The position numbers and the translations under genes are program-made. A stretch of DNA of 64,000 nt from Halocalculus aciditolerans (lineage in GTDB: Archaea; Halobacteriota; Halobacteria; Halobacteriales; Halobacteriaceae): assembly GCF_014647475.1 (NCBI RefSeq), contig NZ_BMPG01000001.1, forward strand, positions 248,001 through 312,000. The letters run 5' to 3'. The notes under the pieces were generated by a model that had not been told where the DNA came from, did no database searches, and worked only from the letters and a program-made list of their open reading frames with translations. This document shows, one piece after another, positions 31,819-60,635 of this stretch (positions within the stretch are counted from its first letter, which is position 1; every line of letters starts with the position of its first letter).

Positions 31819-32031
31819 ATGACCGACACCGACCCCTGCGACGACTGCGGCGACCCGACGGCCAACGCCCTCGCCCGCACCATCCGCCTCTCCGTCGACG
31901 GCTCCGCCATCGACACCCAACGCCTCTGCCCCGACTGCTTCGCCACCTGGATCCAGGAATACCGAGAGTACATGCAACCCGAACGCCCCGAACCGACGAC
32001 GACCATCGACGACGACATCATCGTCGACTGA
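31819..32031 (+). CDS. Small zinc-finger protein (two CxxC)
   Basis: 70 residues: 'DTDPCDDCGDPTANA' gives C7 and C10, and 'RLCPDCFATWIQEYREYM' gives the second CxxC at about 37-40. The four cysteines likely bind one zinc. The tail is acidic. Such micro-proteins are common in haloarchaea and have been linked to stress and biofilm regulation as a class, but this one is not characterised. 'CTTTAGTA' about 25-30 bases upstream fits a leaderless promoter. A hairpin terminator starts 10 bases after the stop. Confidence 0.8.
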   Translation: MTDTDPCDDCGDPTANALARTIRLSVDGSAIDTQRLCPDCFATWIQEYREYMQPERPEPTTTIDDDIIVD

Positions 32032-32033
32032 AA

Positions 32034-32150
32034 AGCCCTAAACCGGCCGAAGGCCGGTTCACCCCTTTTTATGTCCCACCCCCGCCGTCGGCTCACGCAG
32101 ACGGGCCGCCGAAGGCGGCCCGCGTCATCACGCCTACTGGTCACCGCCCT
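32034..32150 (+). repeat. Two-hairpin dispersed element, copy A
   Basis: It begins 'GCCCTAAACC' and contains hairpin 1 AACCGGCC-GAA-GGCCGGTT (32041-32059), a linker 'CACCCCTTTTT' and 'TCCCACCCCCGCCG', then 'CTCACGCAGACGGGC'. Hairpin 2 GGGCCGCC-GAA-GGCGGCCC (32103-32121) follows, and the element ends 'CGCGTCATCACG' and 'GTCACCGCCC'. Two related copies lie at 44505-44617 and 60461-60635. It sits directly after the zinc-finger gene. Confidence 0.75.
32041..32067 (+). terminator. Hairpin plus T-run after zinc-finger gene
   Basis: A perfect 8-base stem with GAA loop is followed after five bases by TTTTT. Archaeal termination needs mainly the T-run; the hairpin may add stability. This is also hairpin 1 of element copy A. 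Confidence 0.6.
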
Positions 32151-44312: not shown

Positions 44313-44617
44313 CCCGCGGGTTCCTCGACCGGCTTCCGCTCTCCGCCGCCGCGACCAACCGCCATCCTCACCGCCTCCGCCGCCTACGCCTACCCCCCGC
44401 CCTCAAAATTGAACGCTACCGCGCGAACTAATTCCTGGTAACCCCGTTCTCCCTTCTCGCAACTCGGAACTCCTCTAGGACGCCCCTCGTGCTGTTCCGC
44501 GGGCCTGAGCTCCGTGATGACGCGGGCGGCCGTCAGGTCGCCCGTCTGCGTCCGCCCGCGGAAACGGGTGGGAATCTGCAAGGGGTAAACCGGCGCTTCG
44601 CGCCGGTTTAGGGCTCG
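44313..44617. other. Noncoding gap downstream of hisB
   Basis: The stretch holds element copy B (44505-44617) next to the hisB stop. The rest (44313-44504) has no convincing gene. It includes an AT-richer patch 'CTCAAAATTGAACGC' at 44402-44416, and 'GGTTACCAGGAATTAG' on the minus strand near 44428-44443. A 63-residue minus frame over the element is judged non-coding. Confidence 0.5.
44505..44617 (-). repeat. Two-hairpin dispersed element, copy B
   Basis: Read on the minus strand from hisB: 'GCCCTAAACC', an 11-base stem TAAACCGGCGC-GAA-GCGCCGGTTTA (44586-44610), then 'CCCCTTGCAGATTCCCACCC', 'CGCAGACGGGC', and a second hairpin (44524-44543) with one G-T wobble, then 'GCCCGCGTCATCACG'. The same blocks are in copies A and C. 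The first stem starts about eight bases after the hisB stop. Confidence 0.75.
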
Positions 44618-45205
44618 CTAGAGTTCGCCTTTCGTGCTCGGCGTGTCGCTGCGGCGGTCGTCGATGCGGGTGGCGTCGTCGAGCGTGCGTGCGACGCCCT
44701 TGAACAGCGCCTCGATTTCGTGGTGGGCGTTCTGTCCGTCGATTTCGCAGTGGAGAGTGACGTCGGCGGCGTGCGCGAAGGAGCGGAAGAAGTGCGCGGC
44801 CATCACGCTCGTGAGCCCGCCGACGGTCTCCTGGCTGAAGTCACCTGAAAACTCGTAGAGCGGCCGACCGGAGACGTCGAGAACGACCGACGCCACGGCT
44901 TCGTCGAGGGGGACGCGGCGGTCGGCGAACCGGACGATGCCGCGTTTGTCGCCGAGCGCCTCCGCGAACGCCTCGCCGACGCAGATTCCCACGTCCTCGA
45001 CCGTGTGGTGGTCGTCGATATCGAGGTCGCCGTCGCAGCGAACGGTGAGGTCGAACAGCCCGTGCTTCGCGAACGCGTCCAGCATGTGGTCGAAGAACCC
45101 GACACCCGTCTCCACGGTCGACTCGCCGTCGCCGTCGAGGTCGAGCGTCACCTGAATCTCCGTCTCCGCCGTCTCCCGCGACACCGCCGCCGTTCTCTCA
45201 GTCAT
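44618..45205 (-). CDS. hisB: Imidazoleglycerol-phosphate dehydratase
   Basis: 195 residues, the monofunctional form. It removes water from imidazoleglycerol phosphate in histidine synthesis. Metal-binding motifs are '[16 protein letters not shown]' (around 35-50), '[18 protein letters not shown]' and '[20 protein letters not shown]', with '[12 protein letters not shown]' near the C terminus. It lies downstream of hisA on the same strand but is separated by a 263-base repeat-bearing spacer. hisI is also in this window. Confidence 0.96.
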
Positions 45206-60414: not shown

Positions 60415-60460
60415 ACCACCTCCCACTCACTCCCCGATAAAAGGATAACCGATAACACAG

Positions 60461-60635
60461 CAAGCCCTTTTCCGGGGCGCGTTGCGCCCCGGAAAACCCC
60501 TTGCAGATTCCCACCCCCGCCGCGGTCGGAGCGAGCTCCTCCCCGCTCGCGTTCGCTCTCGCTCACGCGAACGTCGGCTCACGCAGACGGGCGGCCTGAC
60601 GGCCGCCCGCGTCATCACGCGGTCCGTCACCGCCC
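60461..60635 (+). repeat. Two-hairpin dispersed element, copy C
   Basis: A 13-base perfect stem TTTTCCGGGGCGC-GTT-GCGCCCCGGAAAA (60468-60496), then 'CCCCTTGCAGATTCCCACCC', an insertion of about 55 bases, 'TCGGCTCACGCAGACGGGC', hairpin 2 GGGCGGCC-TGAC-GGCCGCCC (60589-60608), and 'GCGTCATCACGCGG'. Shares these linkers with copies A and B, but hairpin 1 has different base pairs. Confidence 0.75.

Follow-up and report, generated by a model that had tools for sequence, protein, structure and literature searches.

An element abutting hisB in Halocalculus aciditolerans probably belongs to a haloarchaea-wide family of dispersed, covarying palindromes

The element that abuts hisB in Halocalculus aciditolerans (copy B) is not specific to hisB or to its host genus; it belongs to a family found throughout the haloarchaea. 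Copies of this family are scattered between genes and in some cases form inverted pairs. They share an invariant frame made up of a clamp helix of 5-6 bp (P1), a bubble of CCC facing CCC and a CCCACCC tail; the clamp encloses at least one variable hairpin, and covariation is seen in both P1 and the hairpins. Taking the explanation as a whole, we lean slightly towards copy B being a diverged, gene-end-abutting member of a haloarchaea-wide set of dispersed extragenic DNA palindromes.

The window (the whole 64,000-nt stretch of DNA that we analysed) holds three copies, at the positions given by an earlier reading made from the letters alone (the sequence-only reading). Direct reading places A and C on the + strand and B on the - strand. 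The copies and their parts are as follows.

44618..45205, - strand: hisB (imidazoleglycerol-phosphate dehydratase), upstream of copy B; PF00475 match and gene call
44618-44620, - strand: hisB stop TAG, overlapping the P1 strand of copy B
44513..44621, - strand: the whole of copy B, which runs from the CTAG containing the hisB stop as far as CATCACG; model match (covariance-model match 44513-44616) and sequence
44614..44618, - strand: copy B, 5' strand of clamp helix P1, GCGAG, overlapping the hisB stop TAG; from P1 pairing in the family
44611..44613, - strand: copy B, CCC tract on the 5' side of stem 1, reading GGG on the + strand
44586..44610, - strand: copy B, stem 1, 11 bp with triloop GAA
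44583..44585, - strand: copy B, CCC tract on the 3' side of stem 1, reading GGG on the + strand
44578..44582, - strand: copy B, 3' strand of P1, CTTGC; from the sequence and family P1 pairing
44566..44572, - strand: copy B, CCCACCC tail (GGGTGGG on the + strand)
44551..44562, - strand: copy B, short middle hairpin TCCGCGGGCGGA; from the sequence, helix 2 of the covariation test
44524..44543, - strand: copy B, stem 2, GGGCGACC..GGCCGCCC, with one A-C mismatch
32030..32132, + strand: copy A, whole element with the type 2 linker, starting at the stop codon of a small gene (TGA, 32029-32031); covariance-model match 32033-32132
32039..32061, + strand: copy A, stem 1, 10 bp with one A-C mismatch
32103..32121, + strand: copy A, stem 2, 8 bp
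60460..60619, + strand: the whole of copy C, whose middle hairpin is long; it lies upstream of the divergent ileS rather than after a stop codon; covariance-model match 60462-60619
60468..60496, + strand: copy C, stem 1, 13 bp
60589..60608, + strand: copy C, stem 2, 8 bp

Read in the orientation of A and C, the local layout starts with a stop codon or an intergenic base, followed by AAGCCC, the variable stem 1 hairpin and CCCCTT-N5-TCCCACC; its second part consists of a middle hairpin (short, or long in C), GACGGGC, a second hairpin and GCCCGCGTCATCACG. The sequence-only reading had described this as two variable stems between shared linkers. The linker CCCCTTGCAGATTCCCACC is indeed exact in B and C, but copy A carries CCCCTTTTTATGTCCCACC instead, which is a second linker type common to other copies. 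The stem 1 lengths given for B and C hold, while the 8 bp given for A are only the uninterrupted part of its stem. Stem 2 stays paired in general despite its changes in sequence, although imperfectly in copy B, and stem 1 of B, which had been placed about eight bases past the hisB stop, begins 7 nt past it, with the stop itself overlapping the P1 strand. Two parts of the element had been missed: the short middle hairpin and the outer helix P1, which is formed by both of the "linkers" that flank stem 1.

These conserved linkers pair with each other as GCAAG/CTTGC, AAAAG/CTTTT, GAAAG/CTTTC, CAAAG/CTTTG or GGAAG/CTTCC. Among the local copies, GCAAG goes with CTTGC (type 1) and AAAAG with CTTTT (type 2); the sucD copy of G001, one of two sister species (G001 and G007), has GCAAC with GTTGC, and P1 of copy B contains one G-T pair. 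Pair 5 of P1 is paired in 61 of 65 distinct copies, where shuffling would give 33.7, and pair 4 in 60 of 65, where it would give 50.8. When 140 copies were located by their 3' half alone, the 5' partner tracked the 3' strand: CTTTC was matched by GAAAG in 93 of 95 cases and CTTTG by CAAAG in 17 of 18, and among the rarer types CTTCC was matched by GGAAG in 8 of 14, CTTGC by GCAAG in 4 of 8 and CTTTT by AAAAG in 3 of 5. Because its linkers pair as P1, the element represents the local form of a class-wide family with the frame GAAAG-CCC-[hairpins]-CCC-CTTTC-agTCCCACCC. The unpaired CCC, CCC and CCCACCC are near-invariant positions of this frame. The last C of CCCACCC, which the search pattern does not require, is present in 58 of 65 copies compared with 29 of 109 other CCCACC sites; in about one-tenth of copies the last tract is CC only. 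Two copies (L102/L090 and L212) have almost lost the hairpin and retain P1 and the tracts.

We tested covariation on an alignment of 18 copies with 23 pairs, using 500 shuffles and slid-partner controls. The score was 0.619, against 0.145 for shuffled alignments (none of the 500 reached the observed value) and no more than 0.141 when partners were slid. Fitting the alignment to the covariance model favours structure, but the slid controls share this bias only in part, and the margin is large. Across the 18 copies, 95% of cells are paired, and two-sided changes occur in 20 of the 23 pairs and in all 12 pairs of stem 1. The earlier claim of conserved linkers combined with covarying stems is thus borne out, and changes in the stems do keep pairing.

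The covariance model was built from seven copies (alignment A2, with the middle insert removed from copies F and G). A whole-genome DNA search followed by this model yielded 10 copies in the window's genome, with E-values down to 1e-35. The copies outside the window are listed here.

C1:113171: copy J
C1:431441-431651: copy H, with extra hairpins inside
C1:859394: copy E
C1:1038139: copy D
C2:428168: copy G
C2:431032: copy F
C2:581452: copy I

The model also matches copies outside its training set, some of them in Halarchaeum acidiphilum and others in two species belonging to another genus, so the search of related genera did turn up further copies. Two named relatives have sites in common with the window's genome (G000) across genera: Halarchaeum rubridurum one at a radical SAM gene, and H. 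acidiphilum one at gdh. Copy positions are also common to the sister species G001/G007.

Beyond these relatives, the pattern AAGCCC-gap-CCCCTT-short gap-TCCCACC occurs in 36 of 294 haloarchaeal genomes, representing 18 of 78 genera, and its reversed control gives no match. The 3' half alone (GCCCCTTYSADTCCCACC) is found in 82 of 146 haloarchaeal genomes and, counted by genus, in 34 of 58, at up to 75 copies per genome, again with zero matches for the reversed control; given this prevalence in the sampled genomes, the element may rank among the commonest dispersed repeats of the class. The window's genome contains no exact copy of this 3' half, and its copies are a diverged local version to which a second hairpin has been added. 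The local and class-wide versions, whose sequence similarity is confined to the frame, are likely homologous rather than convergent. In other genera, the clamp encloses 12 to >300 nt, tandem copies are present, and inverted pairs are frequent (15, with motif starts 42-48 nt apart); no inverted pair at such spacing was seen in the window's genome. Haloarchaeal plasmids carry the element as well, and most matches lie under no annotated feature. On a plasmid of Halorussus salilacus, a loose scan found the full frame in four of the five places read, all between annotated genes. Copy B itself had no plasmid match. The exact 19-mer linker, searched in 84,980 species, was found only in two Halarchaeum species and in an unrelated Chloroflexi contig (a pentapeptide-like repeat). 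Three versions of the motif had no exact match in viral contigs, and the class motif gave only short partial matches to unrelated phages. Similar strings are common in haloarchaeal contigs, which we treat as a lead only. We found no description of the element in the open literature searched, a coverage that excludes most subscription journals, and a 2025 survey of REPs in archaea mentions no haloarchaeon (PMC12306157).

The sequence-only reading had proposed selection on RNA or DNA structure. Structure stands, and the substitution pattern narrows the choice by favouring DNA. In stem 1, 72 cells are changed on both sides and none on one side (18 sequences), so G-U intermediates, the usual stepping stones in RNA stem evolution, are missing. 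Internal stem mismatches in 64 class-wide copies comprise 8 G.T and 12 A.C, which are small counts from GC-rich stems with few chances for wobble; the near equality means that neither strand shows the wobble tolerance expected of RNA. In two of three sister-species copy pairs (L082/L086 and L083/L088), the loop is reverse-complemented while the stem is unchanged (GAA to TTC, GGA to TCC), which is a DNA inversion between the arms. There is no match in Rfam 15 above the curated threshold. The best for copy B is CRISPR-DR20 at 22.7 bits against a threshold of 42, and we rejected a CRISPR link on this sub-threshold score. Altogether, the exclusively two-sided changes in stem 1, near-equal mismatches, inverted loops and lack of an Rfam match favour a DNA palindrome over an RNA, which we regard as good but not final evidence in view of the modest counts and GC-rich stems. 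The element may serve as a warning case, in that strong covariation by itself is no proof of a functional RNA.

A structured RNA read from the C-rich (mRNA) strand, either a 3' UTR element or a small RNA with a role in, for example, mRNA stability or 3'-end formation, would fit the strong covariation, the placement of 16 of 18 Halarchaeum-like copies after a stop codon on the mRNA strand and the TATA-like boxes that precede several copies of genus g11. We nevertheless consider it unlikely, since stem 1 lacks wobble intermediates, G.T is not in excess, loops are inverted, Rfam offers no match and there is no fixed gene orientation elsewhere. Far less probable still is that the copies are normal terminator hairpins, rich in GC, with stems that covary through chance or composition. 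The sites directly after stop codons in the Halarchaeum-like clade and the CCCCTTTTT that follows stem 1 in type 2 copies would suit such hairpins, but they are contradicted by an invariant frame that extends over many genera with zero control matches, and many copies lie upstream of genes. An intrinsic terminator combines a GC hairpin with a U-run; four or five T follow stem 1 in type 2 copies only, most copies lack a T-run, and stem 1 of copy B is followed by CCCCTTGCAG.

Alternatively, a known transposon family (an IS605-derived PATE, an SMR or a MITE) could have left the element as a remnant or carry it as a passenger, with a transposase moving it in trans. It is dispersed, palindromic and transposase-free and also occurs on plasmids, and PATEs and SMRs, some of them ~50 bp, are known from haloarchaea (PMC3119063). 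We doubt this origin, because stems are highly divergent among copies within one genome, positions are common to sister species and genera, and the expected enzyme is missing from the window's genome. The Y1 (RAYT-type) transposase, PF01797, matched in 7 of 10 genomes searched but not in G000 (the window's genome), G007 or G210, and the motif is absent within ~1.5 kb of 18 Y1 genes; a link to Y1 transposases is unsupported. More generally, the analysis turned up neither an enzyme that would move the element nor a clean insertion. Like the PATEs of Haloquadratum walsbyi, the element is haloarchaeal, palindromic, transposase-free, possibly as short as ~50 bp and without target duplication, but PATE ends match IS605-type transposons, whereas the frame of the element differs and is absent near the 18 Y1 genes (PMC3119063). 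Haloquadratum SMR-A is likewise similar in its ~110 bp, inverted ends, lack of target duplication and unexplained mode of mobilisation; it is set apart by description, as SMR copies are near-identical and SMR-A targets PATEs, while stems of the element are highly divergent (PMC3119063). The element is not shown to be a PATE or an SMR. In behaviour it is REP/BIME-like. As in the RAYT-associated REP/BIME/REPIN elements of bacteria, there are many copies per genome of a short extragenic palindrome with variable stems, often at gene ends, and inverted pairs at near-fixed spacing (the 15 pairs in other genera). Two defining features fail, however: the feet are NNAAG-CCC and CCC-CTTNN rather than a GTAG/CGTC-type tetranucleotide, and the host genome has no Y1 enzyme. 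The conserved part also differs, being a clamp helix with C/G tracts.

Copy B shares its position at a gene end with most copies of its clade. In Halarchaeum-like genomes, 16 of 18 copies start at a stop codon, always preceded by C, and the C-rich strand is the coding strand of the upstream gene in every post-stop copy; the exceptions are copies C and J, which lie upstream of divergent genes (ileS for C). Other genera show no consistent orientation relative to genes, so a terminator-like role cannot be the general role of the family. The element is absent from the hisB stop region of 15 relatives. In two of them (G009 and G004), the hisB TAG overlaps the stop of a convergent gene at CTAG; in the window's genome, 305 nt separate the two stops. 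The hisB site is, on this comparison, a gain in the window's lineage, but not a clean single insertion, as ~190 nt beyond the element were gained too. CTAG is avoided in the window, with 20 sites against 185 expected from base composition (~9-fold depleted), and TAG stop codons account for 6 of the 20. Its presence at the start of seven copies suggests CTAG as a target for insertion, but type 2 copies lack it, and we set this candidate aside.

We propose that the palindrome would be kept at the DNA level by single-strand folding or cruciforms and that its arms would remain complementary by copying one from the other (template switching), as arm-to-arm copying can produce two-sided changes and loop inversions in one step. 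The frame may be kept by selection on a folded clamp-and-tract core, or by the spreading machinery. On the opposite strand, GGG faces GGG between two duplexes and is joined by GGGTGGG, giving four conserved tracts of at least three G in a G strand that reads GGGTGGGAATCTGCAAGGGG-hairpin-GGGCTTGC. These four invariant tracts suggest a candidate G-quadruplex/duplex hybrid, in which the GGG/GGG bubble and GGGTGGG would form a three-layer quadruplex, stacked with P1 on one side and the hairpin on the other; molar intracellular K+ would favour it. A quadruplex that has a hairpin in a loop is beyond what common folding programs can model. For Haloferax volcanii, >5800 predicted G4 sequences and G4s seen in cells are reported in the available part of PMC12873603; that part, which concerns archaeal G4 sequences, describes no dispersed covarying element, and the G4 of the element is itself a prediction.

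In the Halarchaeum-like clade, post-stop copies all have the G-rich strand as the template of the upstream gene, and folded DNA would then be a barrier marking the end of the transcription unit; the element may have been adopted at gene ends in this clade as such a mark. The full proposal, that the selected core is the predicted G-quadruplex between P1 and the hairpin, acting as a K+-stabilised barrier to RNA polymerase or the replication fork and serving as a stop-codon-fused end mark in the Halarchaeum-like clade, we rate as distinctly improbable. With its wobble-free arm-to-arm covariation, inverted loops and four G tracts, the element is a natural test of DNA folding, of palindrome maintenance and of possible G-quadruplex use in cells with molar K+.

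Several minor features were seen around the copies. The two divergent glutamate dehydrogenase genes at C2:428168-431185 of the window's genome have copies G and F directly after their stops. Copies of genus g11 (L135, L138-L140, L143-L146, L169, L170) have TTTATAA-like boxes ~35-45 nt upstream, as if each had its own promoter. C-rich, T-poor tails like (CCGCAC)n follow many copies across families (local copies C, E, F and G; L163, L132, L150), and in L133, L147 and L148 simple ORF calling reads the G-rich strand as a spurious coding sequence (GGTERG...). The long versions (L208-L211, L230-L244) have a common inner core like CTCGCTGCGC..GTGCTTnCGTCG between the stem arms. Copy H contains a second hairpin module, TCCAGC(G/A)GGACC-TYC-GGTCCCGC (L021:1321-1537), which recurs in two other genomes (L094; L013). 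Another recurrent module (L089, L103, L244) has two hairpins with CGTCATCACG or CGTGATCACG as the connection between them and TTCGA/TCGAA at its boundaries; the string CGTCATCACG also terminates the element of the window.
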